This document shows, in pieces, positions 12,901 through 49,500 of a stretch of 64,000 bases of DNA (positions within the stretch are counted from its first letter, which is position 1; the number at the start of each line of letters is the position of its first letter). The stretch is from Polytrichum commune. Lineage: Eukaryota > Streptophyta > Polytrichopsida > Polytrichales > Polytrichaceae. The notes under the pieces were generated by a model. It was not told the DNA's origin. It was given only the letters and a program-made list of their open reading frames with translations, and made no database searches. The position numbers and the translations under genes were made by a program. The stretch lies in the NCBI GenBank assembly GCA_950295325.1, contig OX485806.1, forward strand, positions 19,718,001 to 19,782,000, read 5' to 3'.

Positions 12901-15848
12901 TTGAGTTCCACTTTCCCATTGATGAATTTTACATGATTAAACATAAGTAAACGCTGATTTTATACTGTCAGGTTATTTTGTAGCGCTATTGAAGTACATG
13001 TTAAATTACAGGAGAAGCTTTGTATCTTCAACAGTGACCAAAAAATCTAGGGAGAAATAACACAAGTGGTTCACTTTAGGCCCCTTAATACTAGAGGTTG
13101 AGAACTTGAAGAAAGGAGCCTTCTCATTGGCGGATGGGAGCCTCTTATGCCTGCTTGTTCACCTAAATCCACTTTATACATGAGCTTCGCACTTGAGAGA
13201 TTGAAAATTTCACTGGGCTTATGATGCTTAGATGTGTCTTGGTGGATCCCATGTGGAACAACTACAACAAGCTCTTGGTCAATATTCCTAATCTACCTCC
13301 ATGCAAATAGTCTTTCAAGCATTTTCTGAGTCATCATGAATGCTTCTTTGTTTAATAGCATTCCCCCTTGATATCTCACTTTGAGCTGGCCACTTTTCAC
13401 TTTCTCAAGTATTGGGTGGCTTAAACCCCAAGGCCTTAACTAGGATCCCATGGGATCTCTGAGGTTAAACCACCAAAGGCCGGAATAGATCTCAGATGGG
13501 TGACCTTCCTTGCACTTAAATTCTGGTGCACCTTACCACCTATGGTCCACCCAATCATAGTCGGGGTATCTAGGTGTACCAAATATTTCAACCATGCATG
13601 TGGGAAACTAGGGACTTGCCTTTGGGGGAGATAGGTGTTGGCCGGCTTGTCCGCGGCCTTTCAAGGTGTTCACCTTCGAAAGGAGTGAGTAGTCTTTGAG
13701 GACCCTCTAATTCTCATAATGCCCGTTTCAGGATTACATATAGACTTAGACCAACTCAGAAATGAAGCAACACCATAATACACGCCCATGGCAACATCGG
13801 AATCATCTTTCTTTCTTTTTCTCAACGAATGAGAGCTTGTAAGACTGGTCAAGCTCTCATTAGTTTTGAGCTTTGGATGAAAGTTTGGCTACTCCAAGTA
13901 TCAAACTCCCGAAAATCATTGCAAAGTAAGAGCTCTCAACTCGAGCTCTAGTGTAAAAGGAGCCTTAGCGTGTAAAGCATTGAGAGGCTCCACGTAGGCC
14001 AGTGACCTGGACTTACTGTATGGTGGTTGTGAATTTCGCAGATTTTTGGTGGACTAGTCTATGCTGGAAATCCATTATTGGAGGAGACTTCGATGTTTGA
14101 AAACGAGTATCCACTTCTTTATAGTAGTTCCGATAGGGTGATTCTTTTTCTTTCTCTTTCATAGTCATGCTGTAATCCTTGTACAAAATTCGTAAAACTA
14201 AACACACAGGGAAGCATATTGTACACATATGACGTACTGCCCACGTGATAAAGAGACTGGTATTACTATTGTCTTTTAGAAGGTCTAGCCCTCGTCTTGA
14301 TATATTATCAGCCCAATCTCTACAATGTACCAAATTATTATTCTTAACTTCTCTCAGTTATTTGTTGCAAAATTTCAATGATTTTGCATCTGGCATGGTC
14401 ACGCTGTTCGACTTGCTCATCATGGGCAATTGGCAGAGCTGGATGGAAGTGAGTTTCAATGAGCCCTATTGGATTAGTAACCTTTGATTGTCATTCAATG
14501 TTTATTTATATTTAGCCTGTGGCCACAAGTGTTTACAAATATGTGGAGTCCTTTCTATGTACTAACAATTGAATGCAACTTCCAGAGTTATGTCACTTTA
14601 ACAGGGAAGTGGTGGACGATGTTTTACTTCTGGAGCTTCTATGTTATTGCTGTCCTCTTTCTTCTCAACCTGGTATGTATTCCGACTCAAATTTCATTTA
14701 ATCTATTTAAGAAAAAAAACACTGTCTCTGCAAATTGTGTAATTGTATGCGAAGTGAAAGTATGGAGCTTTGGGGCATTTTTTATTATTCTTTGTTAAGG
14801 AGAGTGGACCTATTTTAGACAGGAAAGAAGTGAGACTGGGCATTACACACAGTATTATTGGTGGTATATTGATGCCTGCATATTGAAATTTTACTACTAC
14901 AGATTGCAGCTTTTGTGTTGGAAGCATTCTTTGCTGAAATGGAGATGAATGCTTCTGAGAAGTCCTCTCAAGACGACAGTAGTAGTGACTCAGACCAGGA
15001 GGTCAGCTACCAACACTCACTCTTGATTTTTTTGTGTTGAAATCTAGAGTTTATGCAAACTGGGGTCTTTCCTGGTAGAACCTGTTTTTAAACCTACACT
15101 GAGCCTACAAAGTCAGCAGAATTTCTGACTCAATGTTTCTGCTACAATATTGGTTAGTATAGCTGGGTACTTAAAAAGCAGACATAGTAGAATCAGCCAG
15201 TAAAGAACTGAGGAAATTGGGGAGGTTTAAGGTGAATTTCTCCATTATGCACAAATGAATTGACAAAGAGTGCATCTCTATATAGCTGTCTTTTGGCCAA
15301 AGTCACACGCCTCCCCCTCATGTCACCAAAATTAGGATTCTGACACCACTTGAACGCTCCTTAAACATTATAAAATGTCAAAGTGGAGTAAAACTCTACC
15401 AAAACATGACTTTTTTGAGAGACTTTAAGGATATCTCTATTGTGCAGGCCCTATAAAGGCATATCCTCTCATTTCTTCACAGGCTTGTCTTCAATTTTCT
15501 TTTTGTCTTCTCTTTTATTTTGCAGGACAACAAGAAGGATGCACGCAGCAGAGCCAAAAGGTTAGTCTTTCAGAGGACTGCTGTAGAGACCTTTCATCTG
15601 TTTGCGCATGTGCAATACTATGTTTTCTTTGTGGGGAAATATTTATACGAACGGTTCTTAAGCCTTTATAGTAAGCACTGGTTTGCAATGTGCCGGTTTC
15701 TTGGATATGTCTATTTTAGAACTGAATATGGTAGTGTCTTTTATTTGGCAGGGCAAGGGACAGCAATGTGCAATCCCTTTTGAACCACATGCTCAGCGCC
15801 GAGCTAGAAAAGACAAAGTCCTTCGAGGAGCGTGTATCTCAAGCATAA
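3994..15848 (+). CDS. TPC1: Two-pore cation channel TPC1 (slow vacuolar channel), complete, 23 exons, 762 aa
   Basis: Tonoplast non-selective cation channel opened by depolarisation and cytosolic Ca2+. Exons: 3994-4170, 6970-7113, 7604-7711, 7997-8092, 8196-8329, 8639-8699, 8835-9001, 9638-9743, 9992-10069, 10536-10597, 10783-10855, 11048-11113, 11471-11614, 11937-11994, 12117-12224, 12364-12427, 12698-12866, 14042-14106, 14358-14448, 14586-14672, 14903-15001, 15526-15560, 15752-15848. All phases join (2289 nt). Order: EDPLL vacuolar-sorting dileucine (2-6); first six-helix repeat, about 75-315, with pore [11 protein letters not shown] (281-291); EF-hands about 340-415; second repeat, about 440-690, with voltage-sensor arginines R557, R560, R563 and filter IMGNWQ (648-653); acidic Ser-rich tail (704-719); short C-terminal helix. 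Length is close to Arabidopsis (733) and rice (about 757). The ATG starts MEDPL, as in other TPC1 proteins. EF loop 1 (from D355) has lost ligands; loop 2 (D396, D400, N404, E407) is intact. Confidence 0.96.
4171..6969 (+). repeat. TPC1 intron 1, built of degenerate tandem duplications
   Basis: The 2.8-kb first intron contains about five diverged copies of a 250-450-bp unit. The phrase GCAGTCAC...TAGCTGCTTTTGCCA recurs near 4503, 5283, 5722 and 6167, and related TTCATCAACT.TTC and GAGCTGTGCA phrases recur near 4545, 4770, 4868, 5060 and 5515. A second motif, GGCCGTAGTC.GATCCA, followed by a CATTTTAG(A)GAAGCAGCTCGC-like stretch, is found near 6048 and 6546. A CT microsatellite lies directly after the splice donor (4181-4200), and a TTC-rich run lies at about 4563-4593. 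Confidence 0.7.
7114..7603 (+). other. TPC1 intron 2 with a recurring GATACC motif
   Basis: Between exons 2 and 3 the phrase TTTTGATACCA recurs near 7173, 7214 and 7256, with further GATACC / GGTATC words to about 7520. Spacing is irregular, so this is a decayed local duplication rather than a clean array. Confidence 0.4.
9060..9560. mobile_element. Two repeat fragments inside TPC1 intron 7
   Basis: Positions about 9063-9250 resemble the left part of the GGGCCACTTCACAC MITE family (TCATTGGTGGAAA, then a CTTGAGGGCCCA phrase, then CATGGCAT.CATGTTTCATG). Positions about 9280-9545 are a copy of the interspersed repeat also seen at 1-300 and 49930-50760. Neither has target duplications that I can define. 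Confidence 0.55.
11203..11356. mobile_element. Foldback MITE in TPC1 intron 12 (about 154 bp)
   Basis: An almost complete hairpin. The left arm AACATTATTCAGATCCATAA... is repeated inverted at the right end, ...TTATGGATCTGAATAATGTT. The arms extend about 50 bp through a TTTGTGGGACTGACA(A/G)TATTCC segment. A second copy lies at about 60509-60655. There is no coding capacity; a TA or TTA target site is possible but not proven. Confidence 0.85.
12428..12697 (+). other. TPC1 intron 16: GC-AG intron with MITE fragment
   Basis: The exon ends ...GAAGAATG and the intron opens GCAAGTTT instead of GT. The acceptor is GATGCGCAG at 12689-12697. Only this junction gives the conserved reading [14 protein letters not shown] and keeps the frame (TG + G). 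GCAAGT is the usual extended consensus of plant GC donors. Positions about 12490-12636 resemble the right part of the GGCCACTT-type MITE family and end GTGTAAATTGGCCCTTA. Confidence 0.85.
13414..13700 (+). mobile_element. SINE-like element with 5S rRNA-derived head, in TPC1 intron 17
   Basis: The order AGGATCCCATGGGATCTCTG, AGGTTAAAC, then CAGATGGGTGACCTTCCT follows the internal control region of plant 5S rRNA (GGATCCCATCAGAACTCCG, AGTTAAGC, GGATGGGTGACCTCCTGGG) in order and spacing. The body then reads GGTGCACCTTACCACC and GGTCCACCCAATCATAG. The tail holds a CCTTCGAAAGGAGTGAGTAG-like stretch. Related copies lie at 30035-30301, 42290-42400, 48885-48990 and 49395-49500. It is diverged, so it is not a working 5S gene. 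Confidence 0.75.
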
Positions 15849-16303
15849 GTCAACCTCTGCTTACAAAGTAGTTAACCTCCAATTTGAGCAAATTGTTCAA
15901 CAAACAGCAGTTTATTTATTTGTTAGTTACAGTTTCTATGTCATTCAAAACTCTTGGTCTTAGGGTTAGGGTTCAATGGCTGCACTCACGAGTTCAGTGC
16001 ATTGATTGAAATAAGAAGAAACTGAAATTAAGGCTCCAGGTGAAAAGTTGTAGTGTATGTCAGACAGAAACTTGAAACACACAACTACAAATTTATAGGA
16101 GCAAGTGGGAGGGAATGCCAGCTTGCGGAGAACGCACAATTGGCAAACCATAAACTAGAAGTAGGAGTTGAATCGAAGTATGGGCACTTTCACATGTTGT
16201 ACAATGCCTCAGAAACAAGGTGATTTTTCAGATGTCTTAATGAGCAATTGGCTTGACTACATTTATTTCACATTTTTTCTCCACAAATTTGGGCTAATAA
16301 TTT
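15849..16303. other. Convergent 3' intergenic region between TPC1 and the calmodulin-binding gene
   Basis: Only 455 bp separates the two stop codons, so the 3' UTRs of the convergent genes must be short or overlap. A TTTATTTATTTG run follows the TPC1 stop at about 15910-15922. No clear AATAAA signal was identified. Confidence 0.5.
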
Positions 16304-17648
16304 TCAAGCCCTTGTGCTGGCAGGACAAGGAGTTGAGTGTTGACATGACATTATGCTTTCAAAAGCCTCCACCAGCACTCTCACCCTGTTGCCTTCACTA
16401 TACGGCCTCCTCGTGATCGCCTCCTCAATCGCGGTATCTGACCTAAAATCACGCTTTTTCAATGCATCAGCATGTTCAAAGGACACCTGAGTCGAGGTCC
16501 TCGAGTTTTTGGACTTCTCGACAATCTGCGTTGTCAAATTTTCACTAGTACCCATGTTGTTGAGTTTGCAACTGTCAGTGTTGGTCATTGAGACTTGGCA
16601 ACCAAGTAAAATCTTGTCTCCCACCGCAGCATTCTGACCATTGTCACTTCTCACCAACATTCCAGCCGATGTTTCCATATTTTCTGCAAGTTTGAGTCGC
16701 ACAATCAGCAGAACTACACTAAACATCTAATTTTCTGTGGCATCAGAATTAGTATGCCATGTTTAAGATAGATTGATAGGGAGTCAAGGTTGTCCATGGT
16801 GGAGAAGGCGTGGCCTTGGTGTGTTTTTGCAAGACAATAAGTGTAGTTTGATGACAACTAGTGTGGGCCACACTAAACCATATTACCTGTGACTGGAAGT
16901 TGTTTGGAACTCCTACTTATTTTGAACATAAATAGGGCTGAATAATTATATGTGACAGTGATTTGTTTACCCATTCTAGGAAGGGAACGTTTTAGTCACC
17001 AATTGTTTCGTTGTGAAGACGACCCAATGGAGAAACCCATCCTCATTCAAAACAAATCACACTTCACATTGGTCCCAACCTCGGGTAGGGGATAGCGCTC
17101 TATCCTGCTAGCATTAGTGGGTCTCTCTCGGAACCATTATCTTTGTCATTTTTGTATGGTTAGTCGTCATGGTGCCCACCACTGAAAAGTGGCAGTAGCC
17201 TGCAGGCGAAGGGGTTCTTCATTCACGCTTCCGGTTGTTTCTATACTATTTCTTGGGAAGATGAGTTTCCTGCCATGTGATTCAGATTACACATTCTAAT
17301 TTGGTACCTGGAGTGTCCACTGAATTCGTTGGCTCCTCAGACCTATTAGCAGTCTTCCTTGAAGTACTGTTGTGTGACAAATCTTCGCCGTTAGTACATG
17401 GCTTTCGAGACTGAGCTACCGGAGCCTCGACTTTCCTGCGTGCAGGGATTGGCAACAAAGCTGGTGTGATAGTTTTGATGTGTTGTTTATGATTTTCCTG
17501 AAATTGTTTCTTGTGTCTGTTATGCTTAGGGCAATTCGGATCAATGCTGATCATCCGCAACACGTCACCCAGATCAGTGCTCTCATCACTGGAAGATTCA
17601 CTCGACAGCTTCTCCAGCTCCACAGCGCCCAGTAGGGCTTCTGTTTCT
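16304..17648 (-). CDS. Probable plant calmodulin-binding domain protein, 3' exons
   Basis: Two exons join in frame on the minus strand: 17648-17308 (after acceptor GGTGGCAG, ending CCAG before GTACCAA) and 16683-16304 (after AACTTGCAG; stop TGA at 16306-16304). The donor leaves one base and the acceptor supplies two, making Glu. The joined protein is polar and Ser/Lys-rich and ends in an IEEAI..RP-SEGN-RVRVLVEAFESIMS segment. This resembles the C-terminal helix of the plant CaM-binding domain (PF07839 type, typically RKV..LVEAFE(S/T)V). Members bind calmodulin and are mostly of unknown role. The exact start of exon 17648 is uncertain, because acceptors a few bases downstream are possible. The family call rests mainly on the C-terminal motif. 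Confidence 0.6.
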
Positions 17649-17759
17649 CTGCCACCCTATTGCACGCAACACTCGTGTTTTTTTACTCTGCGGCGAATGA
17701 ACGTTCTTAAGCTGGGTTCCAAATCACTTGCGAGGAGGGAATCAGAAAAGCAGTGATGT

Positions 17760-18025
17760 TGGAATAATAGTTTATGGCTACCCAAAATGCAAATCTTCAG
17801 ACAGAATCGCAGTGGATTATGCAGCGTCTGGAGAGATTTTTGGGCATAATCGGTCAAGTTCCTAGTGTTTCCAAGTCCAACCAGTTACATGTTGACATCT
17901 ATCGGTTTTTCTTTATCAAAGTGGGGTATATTTTACAAATTCCTCTTAAAATGATGGGTAGTTTTCATGAAGTCTTGAACTTCAACCGGTTTTCTCTCGA
18001 ACTCAACCAGTTCGTCTGTTAACAA
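17760..18025 (+). repeat. Interspersed repeat copy inside the presumed intron
   Basis: The phrase GAGAGATTTTTGGGCATAAT, then CCTAGTGTTTCCAAGTCCA, then GAACTTCAACCGG and AACTCAACC(A/G)GTTC recurs in inverted orientation at 25975-26190. The two copies are collinear over about 250 bp. This is probably the end of a retroelement or an LTR remnant; no coding domain is attached. Confidence 0.6.
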
Positions 18026-18173
18026 GCAGCCGGGTCTCCCCGTTCATGGAGACTATGTTCCATTTCAAGTCCTACCAGCCGGTCAGCACCTACAGACGGC
18101 AGACTCAGACTTCCCAGCCTGGCTTCCAACCCCCATTTAGCAACGATCAGTGAACTTGATAAAATAAGGACTA

Positions 18174-18476
18174 AGATCATAACATACTCAGCTGATGAGT
18201 TGTGTTCATGGGCCCCACAGTAGATTCGAGAATAAAGCCTCCGGATGTTGGAATTCCATTGCTTTAGACTGACTCTGTAGTTAGGGCAGTTCAACACAGC
18301 TCATCAGCTGAGTAATGTTATGATGAAAATGGGTGAGTTGTCATAACATTGCTTAACTGGTGAGCTGTATTCAGTTGCCCCGACTTCAGATTCAGTCTCA
18401 AGCATTGGATTCCAACATCTGAATTGTGAGGCTCATGAACACAACTCATCAGCTGTGTAATATTATGGTTGAGCTG
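18174..18476. mobile_element. Two adjacent foldback MITEs (about 150 bp each)
   Basis: Copy 1 (18174-18326) has arms TCATAACATACTCAGCTGAT / ATCAGCTGAGTAATGTTATGA in inverted orientation. Copy 2 (about 18336-18476) has the same arms, more diverged. Both have the same interior: GGCCCC(A) near the left arm and GGATTCCAACATC or its complement in the middle. The interior runs in opposite orientation in the two copies. A third, more diverged copy lies at 23030-23195. Confidence 0.75.
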
Positions 18477-18839
18477 CTTTACAATGCTATGCATAACAAT
18501 TCTTCAACTTCCTTGTTAGTAACTGCTTCCAATGTAGAAGCTTATAATTCCAGCATGTCATACACTACAAACATATGAGTCTCTGGTTATTGAATTGCGT
18601 CACTGGGAAATTGTCCTACGGCAGTGGGAAGTCTGCAAATCTACCATTGCATATATCTTTCAGATGTTTAGTGTGGTGATTCCGGGCTCTTCTACTTAAG
18701 CTGCACTAATCCACCATCACCGCTACCAGGATTTGATCAATACCTAATTCTGGCCACCGCACTATGAGACTGTAGTCACAAACTAACTAAGATCCATCAC
18801 TTTAATTAGTCGAAGAATCCATCTGAAGCACGGAGCTTG

Positions 18840-19435
18840 GCTAAAAAAAATAACGATCTTCACGAGACTTCCACGGACTAGGTATTTGAAAAACACAGCC
18901 ACACACATAGCTTAAGCTTAAGCTTAATCTCAAGCTTGCAAGTTTGGTAATTTGCCAAGGATAAATAATTTGGACACTTAAATGTGACTAAACTAAACTG
19001 GTGAAGTTTTGGTTTCTCCTTTTCTCAGATAATTTTCAAGTTCAAGTTCAAGCCCGATATTGAACTTGTAGTCATCTGACTCGATGAAAATTCTATAAGT
19101 TCGAGTTTGGGCTTGAACTTGACAATCAATTCTAGAAGTGAAGAACACCTCCATGGACTAGGTATTTGAAAAACACAGCGACACATAGCTCAAGCTTAAG
19201 CTTGCAAGTTTGGTCGTGGGCCAAGCAGAAAAAAGCAGAGAAAAAATAAAACAAAAACAAAGTACCCCTAACTGTGCCTAATCAAATTGGTAGGTATTTG
19301 GTTTCTCCTTTTCTCGGATTGATTTTCAAGTTCAAACCTGCACTTGAACTTGTAGTCGTCGGACTTGATGAAGTTTCTATCAAGCTCAAGTTTGGGCTTG
19401 ACCTTGAAAATCGACCCAAATAAAGTAGTTGTGTG
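18840..19435. repeat. Direct tandem duplication, about 280-bp unit
   Basis: GGACTAGGTATTTGAAAAAC occurs near 18875 and again near 19156. Each is followed by AGCTTAAGCTT words, a CAAGCTTGCAAGTTTGGT phrase, a GGTTTCTCCTTTTCTC phrase and a TTTTCAAGTTCAA...GAACTTGTAGTC.TC phrase. The two units lie in the presumed long intron of the minus-strand gene. Confidence 0.75.
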
Positions 19436-19533
19436 TGGGTAACCCCAATGACTAGTAAGTGAACATGAATTCACTAGCTCTCACCTGCTGACCCGTTGAA
19501 TTTCTAATTAGCATGGGATCGATCCGAACTTGC

Positions 19534-20801
19534 CTCTGCACTAGCAGTACTGGAATTGCTGGCGTTTGATCCATCACTTTCACTTCCCGGATCACCCAAC
19601 CGATCCCGGTTTGTGAGTTGCTGGGTGCCATCACCTGGTGATGACTCATTGAATCCAGAACAAATTTTGTCTTTGCAAATCAAAATCTTCCTGGTGGGCA
19701 CCGGTTTCCGATTCAGAATCTCTGTTGCAGCTCTTGGTGTTCCTCGCAGTTGGACTGTTTGTCTGCATGCATTTATAACTTTGTCCACCCCCATGATCAG
19801 ATGGCAAAAACATTAAAATAAAACAAAAACAAAAAAATGGCAAGCTGATCTAGACTACTGTAACTTACTTCATGATCATGTAGTCATGGTGGGAAGGATA
19901 GTAATAATAATAATGGAGTATTACAAGTCTCTGACATCCTCCCTGATCAGTCACGGATTCCATCCCAGTCCCAGTTCTTTGGAAAAATGAATGTACTGAG
20001 ATTGTGTGTCCTCAGTTCACTCTGGCGCTGGCTTTTTGGCCTTTTGTCTCAATAAATCTATTTTAAAAATGAGAGAGAGAGAGAGAGTCCTCAAGTACCT
20101 AGAACTTAGAAGCTCTATCTTTGTCAGAATATGGAAGAGAAATGATTACAGGACCTCATCGTGTTGGAAATTAATGCAAACAGGCATGACTCATCCTCAA
20201 ACAAACCAATTTATACCAATCAAGTTAGCTTTGATGAAATAATGTGTCCGTTGAATACTTATTTATATGATCAAAAGGTGGTAGTCAGGACCTCTGACCT
20301 CGGAGGCCGAGTTGGAGTGGGTCTCAGAGGAGCAGGTCGAATCCTTTTAGGCTGCAGCTTTGTAACATTAATATTGCTGACAGTACTATAAGCAGTGTTG
20401 GATGGTACCCACTGAATTGCAGGAGGAATTACAAGTGGAGGACTAGTCCGGGAGGATTCGGCTGGAGAAGAAGTAGTACTAGTACTAGTACAGCTTATCA
20501 TGCATTCCGCTGCAATCATGATTATTGAACAAACAAAAATGAAATCAAAACTAAATTGCTGCTCTCTCTGCTCATGAATCCCAAGCTAAGCTCTTCCAAA
20601 AACCCACTTCACATTGCTGCTGCTGCTGCTGCTGATCTCCATGAGTTACAACTTAACATTTCATGGGTCTACCTACTTGATATGCATTCTCATGGGCGAA
20701 TCCATCATCGGTTTTCTTATCGACAAGTTCTGATCCGCTTGTTCTTGATGATCCGGCCTCTTCGGCCCTCTTCGCACTGTTGCTGTCTAGACCGGCGTTG
20801 C
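19534..20801 (-). CDS. Candidate 5' exons of the calmodulin-binding gene (model unresolved)
   Basis: Three minus-strand blocks look coding. 20801-20673 gives GNAGLDSNSAKRAEEAGSSR..., with two possible donors. 20509-20299 follows ATTGCAG and gives a Ser/Thr then Pro-rich stretch ending RPTPTRPPR. 19762 to about 19534 follows CATGCAG and gives RQTVQLRGTPRAATEILN..., with an acidic Ser/Asn end. The second and third join in phase (AG + A). The first joins the second only through the weaker donor TAG/GTAGAC. The third ends either at a GC donor (GAG/GCAAGT), which leaves the next known exon out of frame, or earlier at CCAG/GTGATG, which fits. An initiation codon was not assigned. Composition and splice signals support coding; the function is inferred only from the shared transcript. 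Confidence 0.4.
20067..20090. repeat. GA microsatellite
   Basis: A short (GA)n run inside the presumed intron between candidate exons of the minus-strand gene. Confidence 0.8.
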
Positions 20802-21014
20802 CTTTTCATATCTCAACTCTGAAGAGACAGGTTGCATCATAACTTAACCTGAGGAAGTTTCTGCAACCAATGGGGATCCCAGTATGAGACTAGAGTTTCA
20901 TAAATTTCCAGGGGAGAAATTAATATAAAATCCTCCTACTGCTCGTCGGTTCGTTTAATCAAGTGATTTTGCATCAACATAGAGAAGATTGAAGGGGAGG
21001 ATTAAAGTGAGAAC

Positions 21015-25965: not shown

Positions 25966-25974
25966 GGCCATGAA

Positions 25975-28736: not shown

Positions 28737-30034
28737 GTCTTTGAGCTATATATGAATGAGGGGTACGCTCATGGGCATTAACCTCCCTTGGCCACAATGT
28801 GCGGCCTTTTTTTAGGAGAAGGACAAAGGACCATCTAGTTTCTCAAATTATAGTTGTCAAACATTAGAGTTGTTTGTAAAGAGAAGGAGATGAAACCATG
28901 GGTTTTGTCCCAAACCTTGAGTTTATGAGAATTAACACAAAGTCATCTAAGCTTTCTTAATGCTTAAATTGTCATACGCAAAGAGTGATGTCAGGTTATT
29001 AAAATCAACTCTCTATCTTGTCCTACTTGCATAGGCCGATCCAGCATTTGAGACGGTGGGTCCCATGCTCACACCTTCTTTTAGACCCTAAAATTCTTTG
29101 AACTTTTTGATAGATGAAAAGAAGAAGTCCAAAAATTTCACCCAACTTTCAAAATAGGCTGCATCGTATGACGAACTAAATAACTTTTCATGGAAAGTTT
29201 TCTCAAAGAAGGATCAAACCCAGAGTTCCATCCCTCTTTGAGAGACTTTTACAAATAACTTATATGTAGAACACTTGTGACATGAGACACTACAGTAGAG
29301 GGCCAAATATACTTATTGAAATTAATCATTTCTTTGGGAAAATTACACTTATCAAAAAATAGCTTCGGAGAGCACCAGGAGAAGCTCTAGTCACTCTATT
29401 CATTTACATTGTAGTTAGTCCGAACCCTTAACAAATATCAAATTCATCTCTTTTTTTTTTTCTGCGATAGGTATTGAGACTATATTTAACAAACAATGTT
29501 GCAAACAAAAAAGAGAAAATATATTCATATGTAAGAATGACCAAAAAGAAACAAAAAGAAAGAAAGACAAATTTGATGTTGTCACCGGCGTGAATTGTGG
29601 TGTTTCTCCATTTTCGAGCTGGTCCAAGTCTGTATGTAATCCTAAAACAAGCATTACAAGAATCAAAGATCCTCGACAACTATTGCCTCCTTTTGAGGGC
29701 GAATATTAGTGTTGAGGGGGTATTAAAATTGGCACCAAACCCCGCCAAACCTTTAGATTTAGAACCATGGTTCTCAAATTTTCAAATAACTTGAATTGAT
29801 TCAAAACTGTGGTTCTTATAGATTCAAAACCCAATCAAATGTCCTTCTCAAAAATTGTCGGTTCTTTGTCAGTTCTTTCATGAAAACCTCTAGATCTTTG
29901 AATTTTTTTGAAGTAAACTGGAGGTTATTCTATAATGAAAACTCTCAAAACCTAAGAACCAACTGTTCTTTGCTTTTAATTGGTTTTCAAAAACCGAAAC
30001 CGGAGGTTAGTAACAAAATCAAATATCCACCTAA
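28737..30034. other. Nothing firmly recognised
   Basis: Non-coding, AT-rich. A poly-T run lies at about 29450-29461. Short open frames here have no family resemblance. Confidence 0.4.
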
Positions 30035-30301
30035 CACTAGCAAATACCTTGAATGGGTGTGGACAAGTTGGCAAGCACCTACCTTCCCCAAAGGCAAGCT
30101 CTGAGGTTCCCACACGATTGGTCCAAAATATCTGGTTCACTTGGATAACCCCACTATGATTGGGTGGATCATAAGTGGCAAGGTGCATCAGAATCAAGTG
30201 CTAGGAAGGTCATCCATCTTAGTATTATTTTGACCTTAGGCAGCTTAACGTCAGAGTTCCCATGGGATCCAAGTTAAGGCCTTGGGTTTAAGCCACCCAA
30301 G
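30035..30301 (-). mobile_element. SINE-like element with 5S rRNA-derived head
   Basis: Read on the minus strand from 30301: GGGTGGCTTAAACCCAAGGC, then GGATCCCATGGGAACTCTG, CGTTAAGC, AATACTAAGATGGATGACC and TTCCTAGCACTTG. It follows the 5S rRNA order GGATCCCATCAGAACTCCG / AGTTAAGC / AGTACTAGGATGGGTGACC closely. The body (ATGATCCACCCAATCATAGT) and CTTTGGGGAAGG tail match the copy at 13414. This is the best-preserved 5S-like head in the window. Confidence 0.8.
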
Positions 30302-37132: not shown

Positions 37133-37554
37133 AGCTCCAAAAGTTACGAAGAAAGTGACAACAACCTCTATTTGGATTTGCTTACAATCTCATAGCAATC
37201 ACATGTTTTGTATCCTTAACAAAAGTGAACTACTTGGAAATAGTAACCATTTAAGGCACATCTATCTTATTTGACTTAATTGTCTTGCAAAATGTCATAT
37301 TGCTCGTCACGGGCATTTCAATTTTCGGCCCCACCTCAATTATTGAAACAAACTATTGGTTGTCTTTGGTGGCATGACCATCTCCCTTGTCAAATTTGAA
37401 ACGCAACAATGGGTAATGAACTCCAAATGAATGGAAATGGAGATTTTTGGAAATTTGTGCAAAAGCATGAACCCTACTTTTAAAAGCATCGTGGTTAGGT
37501 TCAAAAGATCGTGTGAAAATTTAAAGTCCCTTTTATGTTGGGCCTCCCTCGGCA

Positions 37555-37835
37555 CCACGGGCCTTGGCTTGGTGGTTAGGGCTCATGGCCCCCAATGAGG
37601 AGGTTGTGGGTTCTATTCCCCATGCCGGCGTGGTGCTCACCACCTTAGTCCACCCAACTATGGTGGGGGGTCCTTGGACCTTGTTGTATGGGTACCTCAA
37701 AGCCCTTTGGGGGGATACCATGTCCGGTATCTTCAAGGCACTAGTGGCTAGCTAGGAACTAGTATAGTGTGTCACTATAGTGTCCATCCTCGAAAGGGGA
37801 GAGTAGTATTGTCCCAATGTCCCCTTGTCCAGTGG
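37555..37835 (+). mobile_element. SINE-like element with tRNA-like head
   Basis: GGCTTGGTGGTTAGGGC fits a pol III A box and GTGGGTTCTATTCCCC fits a B box (GGTTCNANTCC type), about 35 bp apart, as in tRNA-derived plant SINEs. The body (GGTGCTCACCACCTTAGTCC, ACCCAACTATGGTGGGG) and the tail (CATCCTCGAAAGGGGAGAGT) are the same as in the 5S-headed elements at 13414 and 30035. No poly-A tail or target duplication was defined. Confidence 0.7.
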
Positions 37836-39117
37836 GCATCGGGTCATTGGCATTACGAACGGACACTTTATTCACGCCAACCCCTTGCTAAAAAGGGACC
37901 GGAGTTTCTGTATATGTGTATTTGGGCCTCCCTTACAAAATGAATAGTTCTTAGTTTGGAACTTGTTCATCTCGTGCCTTTGAATTGGCAATTGGAAATC
38001 TTCCAAACTTGCAATCCCATAGATGGAGTGTCAACTTATCTCATTAGTTAAAAAGATTTGTTGTCAGGGGGCCCATGGATATCAATGCACCTCTTGAGTA
38101 AGTTCCCGTAATTCTACGTCATGAGCAGCTGACCATTATTTATGGCCATATTCAGTGGCAATTTCGGTATTTGCAAGAGTTGACAACCTCATTGTGCAAT
38201 CCACTTTTAGAAAGAAAGGGAACATCACAACGAGGCTGAAGAATGTTATTTATGATTTTGGTTCACAACACCTACAAAAGGGGGGGGGGGTAAAACCCAA
38301 CGTTTCCCATGTTTGTTGCCAATTGATTTCAATTGAATTCCACTAGACTAGATTAGGGCGTCTTACCAAACATCATGCATCACTAGAAGAAATGTGCAAA
38401 ATCTACCACTATTGATAGATTTGCAAATTTTCTAGTGACACATGTTAATCACTAAGGACTCGTATGCTTATGGTGTATACCTATACGATCTTTTTCAACG
38501 ATTTGTGGGGGAAGGGATGTTGCATGAGGCAACCTTCACAATGATTGATGCATGTGTGGTGTTGACACATTGCTAGTTGAGTCATACATCTTGTTGGTGG
38601 TTGTTGTTATGTAAAATAAGTATACCAAAATTCAACATAACAAGTGTTGATGATATTGTTACTCGAAAATTATCATTTTTGGTTGTTGTTGCCAATATCT
38701 AGAGAATTTCAACACACTAAAGAATGTATCGTTTGGACATCATATACAAGTGGTGTAAGGGTTTGAAGTCTTAATTATAGGTCAACCTACATCAAATCTT
38801 CATACAATGTACATCTACATAATTAATATGTACATATTATCCAAGATTTCAAAGTGTTAGTTTTAGGTCAGGTGTTGGTTATGGGCAAAGTTGCCTTAAT
38901 AAATAATACACAACCCTTGATCTAATGGCCTAATTTTTAATCCTTAAAAGCACACATTGTGTGGTGCCATTGAATGTGTTTGCCTTCAAAAGGAGGCAAC
39001 ATCCTTTGAGCCCCTTAAGTTAGGTATTGCATTACTTGTTTTGGGATTGCATAAGGAAACATGGGTATGGAACAGATATTTTTATGTCTACATTCACTTC
39101 TCCTAAGGTAGTAAACA

Positions 39118-41466: not shown

Positions 41467-41975
41467 GGGCCACTTCACACACGAGACTGAGAGCCCGTGA
41501 CCATTACACTTCAAGCGCCCTCATTGGTGGAAAAGCGGAACCGGTCCAAGTTCACTTCACACTACACTTGAGGGACCAACGGAGTATGTGAATGAAAGAT
41601 GGATGCAAAGTCTACATGGATTTCTACATGGCATCAAATGGATCATGTTTTATGATCACTTGGACTATTTTCAAAAACCCCCTCTTGGAAGTAGGTCTAA
41701 CACAAAACCGGGAGATCATGGCACTCCGAATGTTCATAACCGATAATTTATTCTATTTTTATCATGTGTGACAACCCGCATGAATAGACATTCATTGAAA
41801 TAGCATTTGGTTGAGGACCCGGTCATGTATGACTTCACACTATAGTAGTGTACACTTGAGGGTTCGTGACCACACTACATGACTTTGGAGGTGTGTTGGG
41901 AGTGCCTTTGGACACTTTCTTTTGGGCTCTCACAATTTCATGGTCACGGCTCTTGGCTTGTGTGTGAAGTGGCCC
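41467..41975. mobile_element. GGGCCACTTCACACAC MITE with TAA duplication (509 bp)
   Basis: The left end GGGCCACTTCACACACGAGA and the inverted right end ending AAGTGGCCC are flanked by TAA (41464-41466 and 41976-41978). It runs in opposite orientation to the copy at 36417, with the same interior phrases. Confidence 0.88.
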
Positions 41976-42284
41976 TAAGCTACAATTTATCGCGTAGTTC
42001 TAACAAGAACATGAAATGTAGTGCACATTATACTCTCTTTTAATAGTGATACGATCTCGCAAGGTAGAGAGATAGATAGAGACGATGCCAACCTTTTAGG
42101 GAAGGATTGGTTTTTTGGGAAGCATGAGGCTATGACACCTTGCTAGAATGGGGATTGGCAAAAAATAGTTCCTTAGTGGGTTTCTTAATTAGTGGTTTAC
42201 ATGTAAGATGGGGGTTGGTGGTTGTATAGTCTTTGTTTGTTTACGTGCGGTCCAAATTCAAGACCAAGTTGAACCCGATTCCAA

Positions 42285-42405
42285 CCCGATAGCACAAGAA
42301 TTCCAAGGTTAGCTAGACATTGAATATTGTTAGGATGGGCGACCTTCCTGGAACTGGGTTGTCGGTGCGCTCTACCACTACGGTGCATACATAGTAGGAT
42401 TTCAT
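42285..42405 (+). mobile_element. 5S rRNA-like head fragment of a SINE
   Basis: GCACAAGAATTCCAAGGTTA, then GCTAGACATTG, AATATTGTTAGGATGGGC and GACCTTCCTGGAACTGGG follow plant 5S rRNA positions from the internal promoter to the 3' part. GGTTGTCGGTGCG continues as in the 5S 3' stem region. It keeps the GGATGGGCGACC box well. Confidence 0.65.
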
Positions 42406-42708
42406 GTTAATTAGATATTGTCAATCAAATATGCGTGGGAAATCTAAATTTGCTTAACCCTTAGAGGTTACCGGGTGTTTCTTGAAGGCGTGATAACACA
42501 ACCCCTACAAGGCCAAGCTTTTTTCACATAGTGACACACATTCTTCACATGCTAAATTTTTGAAGGTTGCAAGGATAGACTGGTGCAAATACTTTGTGTT
42601 TATGTATGTACCCATATACATAAATTCACAATTTTTACAATTGGTGTCTTCAAATAACTTGTTGAACTCCATGTAAACATTTTTCAGTTTCAAAAGGGGA
42701 TAAATTTA

Positions 42709-43940
42709 GGGGATCGCTATTTCCACACCTTTTTTGGCTAGATTCACACCTTTTTGCCGGTTCGGTTACCGTGTCACTGAGGCGCTATATATGAGATTCC
42801 TCATGGTGTATCCGGACCGTTGATCCACCAAGGCCCATCCAAGGGCCTCAATGATCCTAGGTGGCGGTGGGGTGGGGGGCGGGGGTGGTGCTTGCCACCA
42901 AGGCGGGGTGGGGCCATGGGCCTCATGTCTTTTTTGGGGAGGCCAGATTTAGGGTGGTGTCGGGCCTAGTGGCTAGGCGGGCCCAGTGGCTAGGCCTACT
43001 TACTAAATAACTAGTTGGTTAGCCTTACTCTACTTACTAAATGACTAGTTGGTTAGCCTTACTCTACTTACTAAATGACTAGTTGGTTCCCCTTACTCTA
43101 CTTACTAAATGACTAGTTGGTTAACCCTTACTCCACTTACTAAATGACTAGTTGGTTACCCTTCCTCTACTTACTAAATGACTAGTTGTTAGGGATGATA
43201 CATAGATTATGTAATGTAGGTGACACTAAGTAGGATAGTGTAATCTTATTATATCTCAACACTTATAGGTGTCCATACCTAACTTCAAGTAATAAGTAAT
43301 AACCAACTATTATTACTATTAAGTAATAAGTAAGGGTAACCAATTAGTCATTTAGTAAGTAGAGTAAGGGTAACCAACGCTGCGGAAAGGAAGAAGAAGA
43401 GAGGAGGAAGGCTTTAACCCTAACCCTAACCTCTCAGGTGACGTGGCCGCCTGAGAGGGCGTCATTTCGGGAAAGGGCTATAGGCCCTCCTCCTCGACTA
43501 GTCATTTAGTAAGTAGAGTAAGGGTAACCAACTAGTCATTTAGTAAGTAGAGTAAGGGTAAACAACTAGTCATTTAGTAAGTAGAGTAAGGCTAACCAAC
43601 TAGTTATTTAGTAAGTAGAGTAAGGCTAACCAACTAGTTATATAATAAGTAGGCCTAACCACTGGGCCCGCCTAGCCACTAGGCCCGACACCACCCTAAA
43701 TCCGGCCTCCCCAAAAAAGACATGAGGCCCACGGCCCCACCCCGCCTTGGTGGCAAGCACCACCCCCGCCCCCCCACCCCACCGCCACCTAGGATCATTG
43801 AGGCCCTTGGATGGGCCTTGGTGGATCAACGGTCCGGATACACCATGAAGAATCTCATATATAGCACCTCAGTGACACGGCAACCGAACCGGCAAAAAGG
43901 TATGAATCTAGCCAAAAAAGGTGTGGAAATAGCGATCCCC
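42709..43940. mobile_element. Long-TIR foldback element (1232 bp) with internal tandem repeats
   Basis: TAAATTTA flanks both ends (42701-42708 and 43941-43948). The termini GGGGATCGCTATTTCCACAC and the inverted GGTGTGGAAATAGCGATCCC lead into arms of over 290 bp with the same GC-rich block (CCTAGGTGGCGGTGGGG). The arms pass into about five left and six right units of a 35-bp repeat (CTTACTCTACTTACTAAATG ACTAGTTGGTTA). The right array is broken at 43377-43496 by a GA-rich and GC-rich segment that includes three CCCTAA units. The 8-bp duplication fits hAT; the termini resemble Mutator-like MITEs. Confidence 0.85.
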
Positions 43941-43948
43941 TAAATTTA

Positions 43949-46620
43949 TCACAAATCAAGATCACGTAGCTTGTGGTTGAAACCTCTTAGATTATGAACA
44001 CAAGTGGGTTTAAGATGTATAAAAATATGAGAGTCGATTAGTATTTAACATTAGCAAGCAATCAAATCATAAGCAATCTTTTCATGGATGCTTAAAAAGT
44101 AATGAAAAGTAAGGATTTTTTTTTAGTAAATATTTCTTTGGCTATACTTGATGAGATTGATGTCTATATGTTGAATTTCAATGACTTATGGTTTGATGTG
44201 CATTTCATATCATTTGTAAATGTTTGAATGTGTTGAAATCATTTTTAAGACATAATAGGGGCCAAGTCATGTAAAAAATGCACGAATCATTTCTATGAAA
44301 CCTTGCTTACAAATTCATATTTTTGGAAATTGGAATTTGGACATTAGAACCTCTTTGGAAAATGGTTTTGTGATTCCGTTGCATTCAATTAGGGGAAAAA
44401 CATTTCATCAAATTTACATTAATTTTCAACGTATTTTAAATTGAAAAGGATCGCTTCTAATAGAATTTTTTTTATTGATTTTTGGTAATATGTATGTATG
44501 TACATCGGTTATTTCCATACAAAAAATGAAGAAAAAAATCATTTCGATTGCATCTTGTAGTCTAGATTTTGGATAAGGCGAAACCCATGAAAACACTCAA
44601 TGAAGACTTAAAAGGTGGTTCTTGTATCGTCCAGGTGTCTCAAATAAATTTAATCAAGGTAATTATAGGTGTATTTTAGATGGTGTAGGATTTAGGCTGA
44701 CAATTCATTCATTTATACAAACAAAAGTTGTGGGAAATCTCTTGACTTCGATACATGCACTTGGGATTGTTTCGCACCTCACTTTATTTAACCATTCAAT
44801 AGTTGCGTACTGAGTTTATTTTTATTGGACCTTGTGCGTCCTCAATCACAGGTACAAGCATTGACAATACCTTGCATAAAGTATCAATTTTAGTCTCTTT
44901 ACCAAAGCCAAGAGCACTTTGGCATAGTCAATAGTCTCGTATTATTTGATCATTTTTAATGCAACTTGAAAAAATCGTACAGTCACACTAGTCATAGTTG
45001 CTATATTATTTAAGAAATCCTTTAATTGTGAAGTATTGTCAAAATATCCCTTTCATCGAGGTAACACCACAACATCCAATTTCTATTCCAAGAGTCATTG
45101 AAAGCAATATACCAAGAGGGTAAAAAGATCATGGACCAATTCTTTATGCTATCCTTTTTAATCATAGGCTCAGTCTCTTAATTATTTTTGTTAATCCATA
45201 ATATCTCATGCACTCATCTCATTTATTAGAATTTACTATGAGCGAGTGAAGTTAAGTTCCTCAATTAGACCTTCTTATTTTGGTCATTCACAACTTAGTA
45301 CTCAAATCAATCTCATTATTGTCAGCATTTCCTTGGGCACATGCCAAATTATGAATTTCAATTAGACATCCATGGAGCAAAACAATCATCAAAGACTCTC
45401 ATGATAAGAACTTCTTCGTCTCCATCCTCTCTCAGTATGTCCTACAACAAAATTTATCACATGTTCAATCAACAAGCAATTGTCTCTCATATACGAGACT
45501 ATTGCTACACAATTTTTTTTCGTTTTCGAGGAATCTCTCTCAATAAGGATTCTTAATTGACTTACAATCATGACAAACTCTATGTTGCATATGCCCTACC
45601 AGGTTTTTGACTGGCAAACAATATTTTTTTTTCAAAATTTACCTGAACTCAGTTTTGGTTCAACATAGACCATTGACTACACACTAATACCAACAAAGAA
45701 CATATACACTTTTAGTAGGCACCCACAAGATGCATGAGAGACAATAGACCAACCATCATAATCACTTTGGTTGGCTTTCATCTAATTCTTCAACAAACAA
45801 TTGACACAACCACTATAACTGCTCTCATACAATCTCTTAATAATCAAACACATTCATGTACCACCTTCCCTTCTCAAGACTAAAATCACACAAGTTCACA
45901 TATGGTTCAAAGACCATTGTCTTGGATATGAAGATTGATTCACAAAACAAGCAGAAGTTCACTTTGAGTTAAAACTCACAATCACAATATAATTTATTTA
46001 GGATTGATGATCACTCTCAAGTTCCAATTAATATTGTAAAATTGGTTTGAGGAATCACCCCTCAACCCAAATTGAAGAGCTTTACCTGCATTCCTACGCT
46101 GGAGTAAGTTTAATCTACAAAGATCAATGCTTGATCCTTCTTGAGCTTGAATGTATTCAAGTCAATTGCCCACAGAAACTCAAGAGGCTCGAGATCAACC
46201 TCTCTTTCTCTCTCTCTCTCTCTAGATAAGAGCTTGTGTTCTTTCCTACAACTACACCTTCTCCAAACAAACCATAGTCCTTTCCAACCCTTCTCTTTTA
46301 TGGTACAGTTCATGGATGACAAGTTTACATGGAGTCCTTCATGACATGTTATGAATAAGGGTGCATGGTCTACTGGAACTTGCGTCAAACCCACCTCCAA
46401 AAGGTGGGCTTGATGCAAATTCCAAAAGATCATAATTTTTTTAATAATTTTTTTCCAGCAGGACAGATGTCAGGACAAGTTGTAGGGTGGATTCCAAAAC
46501 TAATTCCAGGACAGACAAACACCACCAAGTAATTCTCTTAAATTGATAAAATTTGAGACATATTATACTAAACCGAATCCTTCCCTCTTTTTCCGCCAAC
46601 AAAATATCCTATGGTCCCAT
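43949..46620. other. No gene or element recognised
   Basis: AT-rich and non-coding. A CT microsatellite lies at about 46200-46224. No long open frame and no inverted terminal repeats were seen. Confidence 0.4.
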
Positions 46621-46626
46621 GACATG

Positions 46627-46770
46627 ATTCATTCTCACTGCACACTATGCTTGAGGGCCCAAACCCACATAAAATGACTTTCCCCACACCCATGGTATGG
46701 CCTTTGGATGAGAGTCAAGGGTCCTCACCATTGCAAGGTCACGGCTCGTGGCTCATGTGTGAAGTGGCCA
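46627..46770. mobile_element. MITE fragment, right end of the GGGCCACTTCACAC group
   Basis: Ends CATGTGTGAAGTGGCC and contains CACACTATGCTTGAGGGCCC and CCCATGGTATGGCC, which also occur in the fragment in TPC1 intron 16. The left terminus is missing. Confidence 0.55.
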
Positions 46771-47103
46771 GGAGAGAGACTGAGAGAGATTTATTTAAAA
46801 AATAGTTGTCCCCAATCCACTCATATTTTTGGTCATTCTTTCATGCCCAATGATCACACCAATATCACAATGCGGTGCTAACATGACCTGTTTCTAATTA
46901 TGGCAACTCCACGTGCTCTAAGGCATTTCCTACCAAATTCTCGAGAGGTCATCGCCCACCGTAATGGACTTGTGCATTGATTCCATGAAATGAGGAAAGA
47001 AATAAAGACATAAAGACGACTCTGATGTTGCCACTGGCATGAATTATGGTGTTGCTTCTTCGTCCACGGGTTGGTCTAAGGGCCACTTCATACACGAGAC
47101 TGA

Positions 47104-48324
47104 GGGGCGGTTTACACTATGGACCATGAAGTTGGACCAGGGCTCTGCAAGGCAGCTGATTGGTTCTTGAAGTTGTCCCGGGACAACTTCGGTTTACACT
47201 AAGGAAAAAATGGCAGAGGGACCACGGAGGTTGAGGTCCCCAAAATATAATTTTTAAGGCCTAATAAATGCACTGACATGGTCCAACGGGTTTTTCGTTG
47301 AGAGAGGCAAAAGAGGTGGTCTGGTAGGAAAAGGCAAGGGCCCATGTCAGAGAAATGCCATTTCACGAATGTTTTAATGAATCTAGCTTTTTTGTGCCTT
47401 AATTATATTATAGCCCATGAGACATACTAGCACTACCTTGCCCTACCCTTTAAACCCGCTTACACGTGTTTCATCAAACAACGCGGGACATCTAGAACTC
47501 AAGAATTCAAGTGCAGATTTGTTTTTTTGGTCTACCAGCTGCAATGTTTGGAATTTGGAGGCGTGTAATATACCATTGGAAAGGTCTTGAAAATACCTTT
47601 CCAACGGTATATTACACGCTCCAAAATGTTTAAAACATACAGTTGAAAAAGAAATAAGAAAATACATAGTCGTTTAGTGACTGTAGATCAGGGTGGTCAA
47701 AAGAAGCGCAATGGGAAATCTTCTAACATTAATTATCAAAGAATTGAAATTTAGTGTTGAGGAAGGTTGGGTGGTAACAACATCAGATATAATCAAACAC
47801 TAAATATCCTATTTAGTGTAGTGAAACACAAGGTACATGTCACATGTAAATTACATTGAACATGTACAATTGCATCGCTCATTTTTTTTTTGTAAAAATT
47901 GTTGTGAGAAGATTTGCAAGCCACATCTTCGACACATTTAACAAAAGTGAAGACAGTTGAAGCCCAAGAGATGACAAGAGAATGATCAAACTTTAAGGTG
48001 AAAAGAAGAAAAAACTAATTGACAAGATAAGTGAAGGCATGTGTAGGCAAGTGAAGGCAAATTGAAGTCAACAAAATGCTCAAACTTCATTTTCCCCCAA
48101 AACTGCCCTTTTTGGGCTTATATTAAAAAAATCAGCACATCCACTTCTTGCCGCATGGTCATTCTTCATGGTCCACATTCGGTTTACACCTAGTGAAGGG
48201 CCCATGAACCATGAAAACTAATATTTTAGTAACTCGGACCATGGAAGTCGTCCCATGAAGTTGTCCCACGCAAAATAGACCTCTTACGTGGGACGACTTC
48301 ATGGTCCATAGTGTAAACCGCCCC
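47104..48324. mobile_element. GGGGCGGTTTACAC element nested in the 47080 MITE, TGA duplication
   Basis: The termini GGGGCGGTTTACACTATGGA and the inverted TCCATAGTGTAAACCGCCCC are flanked by TGA (47101-47103 and 48325-48327). The arms continue with GGACCATGAAGTTGG.CC. A related element lies at 58585-59136. This copy is longer because about 47370-47930 holds further inserted sequence: a 65-bp hairpin and one arm of the 2153-type MITE. No coding capacity. Confidence 0.85.
47557..47622. repeat. Near-perfect 66-bp hairpin
   Basis: GCGTGTAATATACCATTGGA then AAGG is followed, after an 11-base loop, by CCTTTCCAACGGTATATTAC then ACGC. The flanks GGAATTTGGAG and CTCCAAAAT extend the stem. It lies inside the nested element. 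Confidence 0.85.
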
Positions 48325-48884
48325 TGAGAGCCCGTGACCATTCCACTTCAAGCACTCTCATTGGTGGAAAAGGCGGAGCCGGTCCAACTTCGCTTCACAC
48401 TACGCTTGAGGGACCAACGGAGTATATAAGTGAATGTAAGATGCATGTAACGTCTACATGGATTCTTACATGGCATCAAATGGATCATGTTTCATGGTCA
48501 CTTGGACTATTATTTAAAACCACCTCTTGAAGGTAGACCTAACACGAAACCGGGAGACCATGGCACTCCAAACGCTCACAACAGTTGGTGTATTCTAATT
48601 TATCATGTGTGAGAGCCCGCATGAATAAACATTCATTGAAATAATATTTGGTTGAGGGGCCCGGACACATATGACTTCACACAACACTTGAGGGTCCATG
48701 ACCACACTCCATGATTTTGGAGGTGTGTTGGGACAACCTTTGGACACTTTCTTTGGGCTCTCACAATTTCATGGTCACGGCTCTTGGCTCGTGCGTGAAG
48801 TGGCCCTAAGTTTCTATGTAATTTCAAACGGGCATTGTGAGCATTAGACCCCCCCCCCCCACCTCTTGCATGAATTACTACCTC

Positions 48885-49000
48885 TTTTCGGAAGGTGAAC
48901 ACCTTGTATGGCCATGGATAAGCAAGCCGGTCGGCCGGCACCTATGGTCCCCAAGGGCAAGCCACTAGGTTTACCACGGGGAGGTCACTTCATTGTCAAG
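48885..49000 (-). mobile_element. SINE tail fragment
   Basis: On the minus strand, ACCTAGTGGCTTGCCCTTGG, then ATAGGTGCCGGCCGACCGGC and GGTGTTCACCTTCCGAAA match the 3' part of the 5S-headed SINE at 13414-13700 (GGACTTGCCTTTGGG, ATAGGTGTTGGCCGGC, GGTGTTCACCTTCGAAA). Confidence 0.6.
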
Positions 49001-49394
49001 TTGACACCACGTGCGGACAAAGTTTGCTACCCCTAAATTACATGCCATATATAATTTTAAAATTTATGATATTTTTTCTACATATACATAACCATTGATA
49101 GTATCTTTTGTATACTTTTTTGAAATTTTTAGTCATCTTTTTTTTAGTAATTGTTTTAGTTCAATTTTGTGTCATTCTAGTTAGAAATGGTATGTTTTAT
49201 GAAAAAAACAAATCATCAAATTTAGTTACCACTTTTGACTATGTCATAGGTACTGTGTATATATACTCATGAAAAACATTTGATAAAATTTTGACCCATT
49301 TTGGTGGTGCAACTTACCAAAAGAAGATTTTTTTGGTCGCACGTGGTGTTCAACTTGACAATGGAGTGATCTACCTGTGAGGTTTCCACATAGT

Positions 49395-49500
49395 TGGTTG
49401 AAAATAGTCGGTTTACCCATGTACCCTCACATTAGTTGGGTGGACCATAGATGATAAGGTGCATTGAATATCAAGTGCTAGGAAGGTCACCTAACTTAGC
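49395..49500 (-). mobile_element. SINE body fragment, 5S-headed family
   Basis: On the minus strand, GGTGACCTTCCTAGCACTTG, then CAATGCACCTTATCATCTAT and GGTCCACCCAACTAATGTG match the head-body junction of the copies at 13414 and 30035. Confidence 0.65.

Follow-up and report, generated by a model that had tools for sequence, protein, structure and literature searches.

Introduction

Kapitonov and Jurka are said to have described short interspersed nuclear elements (SINEs) derived from 5S ribosomal RNA (rRNA), the SINE3 elements, in 2003. Head exchange occurs among animal SINEs, and in AmnSINE1 5S and transfer RNA (tRNA) heads are found on related bodies. Plant SINEs with a common 3' domain, the AngioSINEs, were reportedly described by Seibt et al. 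in 2020 and are said to be tRNA-headed. Here we analyzed a 64,000-nucleotide stretch of the land plant Polytrichum commune (assembly GCA_950295325.1, contig OX485806.1; C4:19718001-19782000), referred to here as the window, together with the 408 Mb genome around it (64 contigs, of which seven are chromosome-sized at 42-78 Mb). The window contains copies of a 5S-headed repeat, which we named S5, and at 37551-37908 a tRNA-headed repeat, which we named T. Our data indicate that S5 is very probably a 5S-headed SINE and T a younger, tRNA-headed SINE on a related body, the heads presumably having been exchanged by template switching.

Excerpts of published work describe 5S-derived SINE3 elements from fish, moths, and Aspergillus (PMC3272025, PMC8010984, PMC5063351) and deal with AmnSINE1 (PMC3234267). 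A 2024 study of Cassandra, a plant terminal-repeat retrotransposon in miniature (TRIM), treats, in its excerpt, acquisition of a 5S-like promoter as something known "for SINEs in animals" (PMC10853983). An excerpt of Kojima 2024 takes up the earlier speculation that a SINE3 landing in a long terminal repeat (LTR) gave rise to Cassandra (PMC10886601). SINE3 5S sequences are said to occur in plants in an excerpt of PMC3095306, which cites the Cassandra paper. The classifier of the plant tool AnnoSINE allows 5S heads, as its excerpt states (PMC8825457), so an unpublished plant annotation may exist. Full-text literature searches, which did not extend to Repbase and SINEBase, gave no plant 5S-headed SINE or SINE3 among the matches listed, and likewise nothing relevant on moss SINEs, Polytrichum, or Dualen. 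A preliminary description of the window, made from its sequence, was aware of no pairing of 5S and tRNA heads in plants. S5 extends the 5S-headed SINEs, so far described in animals and a fungus, to a land plant.

A 5S-headed repeat family with SINE-type ends

A genome search with S5 copy A of the window as query gave 41 matches from the best 40 of 1,758 first-look candidates, and 35 of these, copy A included, were read. The 35 copies are dispersed, have a common start, GGGTGGCTTAAACCC, and a common end, CACGCCGGTGGCAACATCGGAGTCGTC, and define an element of approximately 402 bp that consists of a 5S head, a body, and a tail, the 3' end reading ATTCACGCCGGTGGCAACATCGGAGTCGTC(TTTC)n. Copy A itself excepted, the matches listed are 80-83% identical to copy A. 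Target-site duplications (TSDs) were scored in 34 copies, with L040 left out for its incomplete 5' end. We found that 15 of the 34 copies score 7 or higher, compared to 3.5% of mismatched flank pairs, and that the mean score of the flank pairs is 6.4 versus 4.3 for mismatched pairs (permutation p 5e-5). The clearest TSDs are those of L015 (14/14) and L013 (12/12). At L094, one S5 copy is nested in another with approximately 11 model positions overlapping, as expected from a TSD. The preliminary description proposed to recognize a SINE by its TSDs and by a simple tail, and genomic copies show both.

S5 is an old family. The 35 top copies diverge by 12.7% from their consensus and by 20.5% pairwise, with 38% divergence at CpG sites and 10% at other sites. 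A second sample was drawn with the S5 body motif CCACCCAATCATRGTGG, which occurs 272 times in the genome and 0 times in the control; 40 of 100 listed places were read, and 38 of these copies (two were too short) diverge by 15.8% from consensus on average. The motif count and this divergence give a rough copy number of 3,000. A 5S head was found by profile on 36 of the 40 sampled bodies, some heads being truncated; on two more (L097, L109) the last head bases are seen by eye, and two (L076, L091) are without a 5S head. The junction between head and body is constant in the 35 aligned copies, and the TSDs lie outside head and body together. None of the 40 bodies carries a tRNA head, the motif being an S5 variant that excludes T by design. 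More than one S5 match occurs at 10 of the 40 loci, in stretches of only 661 bp, as a result of split copies, the nested copy at L094, duplications within the element (L101, L110), or short additional fragments (L102, L108). The duplication in L101 and L110 is a tandem one of approximately model positions 81-267 and possibly marks an S5 subfamily.

Relation of the S5 head to 5S rRNA

The S5 head consensus is identical to the host 5S gene at 82 of 113 positions and scores 52.6 against it, compared to a maximum of 23.9 among 3,000 shuffles (0/3,000). The preliminary description read the head as a diverged 5S promoter, and individual heads bear this out, since copy A (45.1), copy B (40.9), and the fragment at 42253 (28.1) all score above every one of 2,000 dinucleotide shuffles of the host 5S gene, the maxima of which are 25.1, 22.1, and 19.0, respectively. 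Promoter-like 5S segments are present in the head, and GGCCGGAATAGTACT and AACTCTGA are common to the head and the host 5S gene. The head also shares its GGGTG start and CCGGATCCCAT with angiosperm 5S rRNA, to which it is identical at 82 of 110 positions; the host 5S gene (two loci) differs from that angiosperm sequence. Single S5 heads are decayed: in the window, the Rfam 5S model has its sole match at copy B, whose 24.6 bits (E 1) fall short of the gathering score of 38, and on single S5 copies it gives an E of 1 or better at 5 of 20 loci and reaches the gathering score at none.

The T family and the body it shares with S5

T is a young tRNA-headed SINE. The genome search with the window copy as query gave at least 40 matches among 1,475 candidates, all 100% identical as rounded, and the first 15 were read. 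These copies are 354 or 358 bp long and followed by a (TATC)n tail, copies of equal length, between which alone divergence was calculated, differ by 0.4%, and TSDs are present in 15 of 15 copies compared to 0.5% in the control. The T junction pattern has 738 matches in the genome and 1 in the control. ARAGORN reported no tRNA in the window. The preliminary description had placed a tRNA-like head with A and B boxes on an S5-related body at 37555-37835; head and body stand, and the bounds are now 37551-37908.

Whole-body comparison of S5 and T gives z 6.3 for global and 6.5 for local alignment, with none of 2,000 shuffles as high. The central domains score 25.9, where shuffles average 13.2 (0/3,000), and the 3' parts score 24.1, where the shuffle maximum is 21.8 (0/3,000). 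An S5 central profile gives T 13.5 bits, compared to at most 1.4 for LINE (long interspersed nuclear element) ends and reversed controls, and in the window the S5 body profile finds the T copy with E 2.9e-4 (E 0.0019 for the central domain alone). The two heads, by contrast, have no relationship to each other (a score as high is reached by 503 of 2,000 shuffles). By eye, they meet the shared domain at almost the same position (ACCACCT..GTCCACCC), a matter raised by the preliminary description, and in T a linker of approximately 11 nucleotides follows the tRNA part. The shared body proposed there holds for the central domain, whereas the 3' half of the T body, with CTCGAAAGG, is LINE-derived; the SINE-specific part common to S5 and T is therefore mainly the central domain.

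5S chimeras and other 5S loci

The Rfam 5S model has at least 29 matches genome-wide (best 47 of 15,430 candidates scored). We read 19 of them, at 17 loci, and left out 10 near-intact ones of 98-109 bits. In five chimeras, each a single locus, 5S sequence from position 1 to position 118 or 119 (of 119) continues into other sequence: into the 3' region of the LINE described below at different points in L057 and L061, into ATTCACGTTGATGC-type tails in L058 and L060, and, in L056, into a complete SINE of the T type whose 3' part differs. In L061, the join lies at a CATCCA that both the LINE and the 5S end contain. TSD-like flanks surround four of the five chimeras, scored without a mismatched-flank control: 10/11 around the whole of L056, 8/8 in L057 (three overlapping the aligned 5S start), 11/11 in L060, and 15/18 in L058, while L061 has a TSD-like match of 6 only. 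These 5S::LINE and 5S::SINE chimeras look like head capture in the act, and their sequences suggest that template switching onto full-length 5S rRNA may be recurrent.

The SINE in L056 (C2:11360423-11361141) belongs to a T-type subfamily in which the 3' third, as well as the stem-loop (CACGCTGATC..GGTCAGCGTTG), differs from that of T; its 5' part is identical to T in 217 of 226 aligned columns. This subfamily suggests that tails may be exchanged in addition to heads. The 3' part of S5 compared to that of the subfamily gives no significant match (245/3,000 shuffles).

The other 5S loci comprise two genes (L051, L052), three TFIIIA-like loci (L053, L054, L066), L067, and six without assignment (L055, L059, L062-L065). 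At C2:59433300-59434250 (L053), C7:14287800-14288750 (L054), and C4:54347559-54348281 (L066), TFIIIA zinc-finger genes are seen by eye, each with two tandem 5S-like units approximately 184 bp apart (Rfam 37-52 bits). These units resemble a duplicated plant 5S-mimic exon (P5SM) of TFIIIA splicing control, and L067 shares one such 5S-like stretch. The three double-5S loci were considered as Cassandra and rejected, being read as TFIIIA-like genes. Near-intact 5S genes number at least 12 (98-110 bits) and are dispersed over five chromosomes (C1-C3, C5, C6); since only the best 47 candidates were scored, a 5S array may exist unseen.

The LINE and the 3' ends of T and S5

With chimera L057 as query, at least 40 matches were obtained, of which 24 cover only its 3' stretch. 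The 16 of these 24 that were read have variable start points, and the sequence upstream codes for a conserved C-terminus. A protein search for the LINE gave open frames of up to 2,169 amino acids (best 150 of 3,213 candidates). In the natural copy L135 (C3:4491800-4499300), two open frames, of 354 and 1,699 amino acids, contain matches to Exo_endo_phos_2, RVT_1, RNase_H, and, unexpectedly, PCIF1_WW (E 3.5e-9). This LINE is abundant, and its conserved C-terminus shows a Cys/His and PD..E..K-like pattern by eye. The C-terminus is perhaps a second endonuclease, comparable to that of Dualen; comparison to the PDB gave nothing useful.

A further 16 LINE 3' ends carry ATTCACTCCGG, a stem-loop, and CCGGAGTTCT in this order, most of them followed by TTC repeats. 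The last 132 nucleotides of T match a LINE 3' end with z 18.7. T is also recovered with E 1.5e-13 by a profile made from 32 LINE ends, and in the window this profile matches 37774-37907 (E 4.5e-12). A stem-loop lies at the same place in all six folded 3' ends, with z from -2.0 (S5) to -6.9 (LINE). The likeness of S5 to a LINE-type end consists only of its resemblance to the T 3' part and the stem-loop. LINE 3' stem-loops have a role in recognition by reverse transcriptase, according to an excerpt of PMC5135761.

Copies in the window

The window was searched with an S5 profile built from 15 genomic copies, which include copy A (Table 1). The two near-complete copies of the preliminary description are both real by profile, but their ends shift: copy A runs to approximately 13815, not 13700, and copy B continues to 29559. 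Its three fragments are indeed S5 sequence, yet those at 49395-49500 and 48885-49000 read as one minus-strand copy, to which the previously unlisted 47010-47080 also belongs (piece E values 2.7e-27, 2.4e-23, and 7.5e-13). The third, placed at 42285-42405, retains its match to the S5 head and extends to 42253-42441. Several of the apparent fragments are thus single S5 copies split by later insertions, an insert of approximately 293 bp separating the pieces of copy B and two inserts, at approximately 48978-49379 and 47081-48798, splitting the 47010-49500 copy. These two inserts and the one in copy B, at 29747-30039, have inverted ends by eye. The insert at 47081-48798 is flanked by a TTA duplication, which we take to be of the kind made by PIF/Harbinger-type elements.

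Table 1. S5 and T features in the window (window positions)
Feature	Position	Strand	Details
S5 copy A, full length	13414-13815	+	Profile model 1-401 (13414-13814), E 1.6e-134
S5 copy A parts: 5S head, central domain, 3' part, (TTTC)n tail	head ~13414-13529	+	Body profile starts at 13530
Copy A candidate TSD, TTTCTCAA	13401-13408 and 13818-13825		Score 8, by eye; 5 nt before element
S5 copy B, full length, two pieces	29559-30298	-	30298-30040 (model 1-260), E 4.7e-75; 29746-29559 (model 211-401)
T TSD, TTGGGCCTCCCT	37538-37549 and 37922-37933		12/12 identical
T copy, whole, plus short tail	37551-37908	+	S5 body profile E 2.9e-4
T tRNA-like head	37551-37637	+	A-box-like and B-box-like motifs TGGCTTGGTGG, GGTTCTATTCC by eye
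T central domain common with S5	37638-37776, strongest 37639-37677	+	0/3,000 shuffles; central profile E 0.0019
T LINE-derived 3' part, stem-loop at end	37777-37908	+	z 18.7 versus LINE 3' end
S5 body fragment	38957-39057	+	Model 234-331, E 4.4e-10
S5 fragment, head and body start	42253-42441	+	Model 9-193, E 3.6e-15
S5 copy, three pieces	47010-49500	-	Model 76-399; 49500-49380, 48977-48799, 47080-47010
Weak S5 central-domain fragment	55113-55195	+	Central profile E 0.001

Elsewhere in the genome, clusters of the chlorophyll-binding family were seen at C2:29388478-30911038, C4:5552659-5568151, and C5:1751760-1846160. The C5 cluster is a tandem Lhcb array with apparently intronless genes. In the PDB, the Lhcb protein has its best single-domain matches in 8htu (461 bits) and 7xqp, which are moss (Physcomitrium) structures; the top entry, 9vfj, is a large chain of two domains with 284 bits in the better one. 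These matches and the seven chromosome-sized contigs point to a moss rather than a flowering plant. The C2 and C4 matches are weaker and, as a guess, represent ELIP genes. ELIP genes are expanded in desiccation-tolerant plants.

Origin of the two families

The preliminary description proposed a SINE-like family with heads exchanged on one body, and the TSDs, the tail, the shared central domain, and the lack of LTR pairs at 35 loci support it. In this view, the 5S-type promoter inside the S5 head would direct transcription by RNA polymerase III, and a LINE reverse transcriptase would recognize the 3' stem-loop and simple tail of S5 and copy the element to new sites, leaving TSDs. The long-frame LINE described above probably mobilizes T, which carries that LINE's 3' end. 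If the reverse transcriptase switched template from the SINE RNA to another RNA polymerase III transcript, the head would be replaced, and S5 and T probably differ because of such a switch. The exchange event itself is what we infer from comparing the two families. Jumps onto full-length 5S rRNA would recur in the genome and yield the 5S::LINE and 5S::SINE chimeras. Given an old 5S-headed and a younger tRNA-headed family with related bodies, plants too seem able to swap SINE promoter heads.

Several results weigh against this account. TSD scores of 19 of the 34 S5 copies fall below the threshold, a B box before the S5 motif has 0 occurrences genome-wide with no intermediate found, and S5 holds one internal TTTT, a possible RNA polymerase III terminator, where T holds none. 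The central-domain score of S5 and T lies barely above the best shuffle (25.9 versus 25.4), and their last 90 and last 60 nucleotides alone give weaker comparisons (64/2,000 and 5/2,000 shuffles). The S5 3' part has no direct match in the LINE, the score being equalled or exceeded by 2,006 of 3,000 shuffles, and S5 receives at most 1.0 bit from the LINE-end profile. The composite of 5S and tRNA heads in L056 is a single locus, its 5S::T junction pattern having 1 match genome-wide, and the chimera flanks lack the mismatched control that the S5 flanks have.

An explanation without head exchange, in which 5S and tRNA each joined related LINE sequence separately and the common body reflects parallel recruitment, is unlikely but the most serious alternative. 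The T 3' part is clearly LINE-derived, and 5S::LINE joins arose separately at different LINE points in L057 and L061. The central domain, however, is common to S5 and T and is unmatched in the 3' end of the one LINE family compared (607 and 1,263 of 3,000 shuffles for the two central domains), although another LINE could carry it.

It is very improbable that S5 represents a Cassandra-type TRIM, the LTRs of which carry a 5S promoter, in the form of a solo LTR or a remnant. Excerpts of PMC10886601 describe Cassandra as widespread in land plants, with 5S sequence in its LTRs. We found a single S5 match, and neither a second match nor an LTR pair, at each of 35 loci (15 of approximately 3.3 kb and 20 of 681 bp), and a Met-tRNA primer-site 12-mer (at most one mismatch) is absent from the 15 larger loci; LTR pairs with a Met-tRNA primer site are what the preliminary description expected of Cassandra. 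Likewise, no S5 pair around an internal region occurs in the 661-bp stretches of the 40 motif-sampled loci. S5 begins with GGGTGG and finishes in a TTTC repeat rather than having TG..CA ends, and its candidate TSDs are mostly 7-18 bp long. The TSDs of TRIMs are 5 bp long. A Cassandra identity was therefore rejected on the absence of LTR pairs at the 35 loci and of the primer site at 15 of them, and on the SINE-type ends. We also rejected the least credible reading, raised in the preliminary description, of the body as an independent transposon inserted beside 5S-like and tRNA-like sequence. Dispersed 5S copies in the genome speak for it, but the junction is constant in the 35 aligned copies, 5S heads are present on 36 of 40 bodies, and the TSDs lie outside both parts.

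Exchange of heads between two SINE families also forms part of a wider account, which we consider evenly balanced between true and false: that a land plant has true 5S-headed SINEs, made repeatedly by LINE reverse transcriptase jumps onto full-length 5S rRNA, that one jump founded the family of approximately 3,000 copies, that 5S and tRNA heads were exchanged on one body, and that this is the missing plant SINE3. If so, an S5-type element would be the proposed source of the 5S part of the Cassandra LTR. With a 5S SINE in a plant, the origin of Cassandra from a SINE3 becomes testable.

Comparison with known systems

Like the Cassandra TRIM as excerpts describe it, S5 is a plant retroelement that has a 5S promoter and no coding part (PMC10886601, PMC10853983). 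It differs in its SINE-type tail and TSDs, and neither an LTR pair nor a primer site was found at the loci searched. By element structure, set beside the SINE3 families as these are described, S5 is like SINE3 in its 5S-derived head with internal promoter, its body, simple tail, and TSDs, and in that no coding part was seen. It departs from SINE3 in its land-plant host and in the body that it has in common with a tRNA-headed SINE from its own genome; a LINE partner of S5 was not found. With AmnSINE1 the two families have in common that 5S and tRNA heads occur on related bodies, and L056 consists of 5S followed by a complete tRNA-headed SINE; unlike in AmnSINE1, S5 has a 5S head alone and T a tRNA head alone, the composite occurring at one locus. 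As in the AngioSINEs, modules are shared between plant SINEs. In contrast to the AngioSINEs as these are described, the heads of S5 and T derive from different RNA classes, and it is the central domain, rather than the 3' end, that the two families share.

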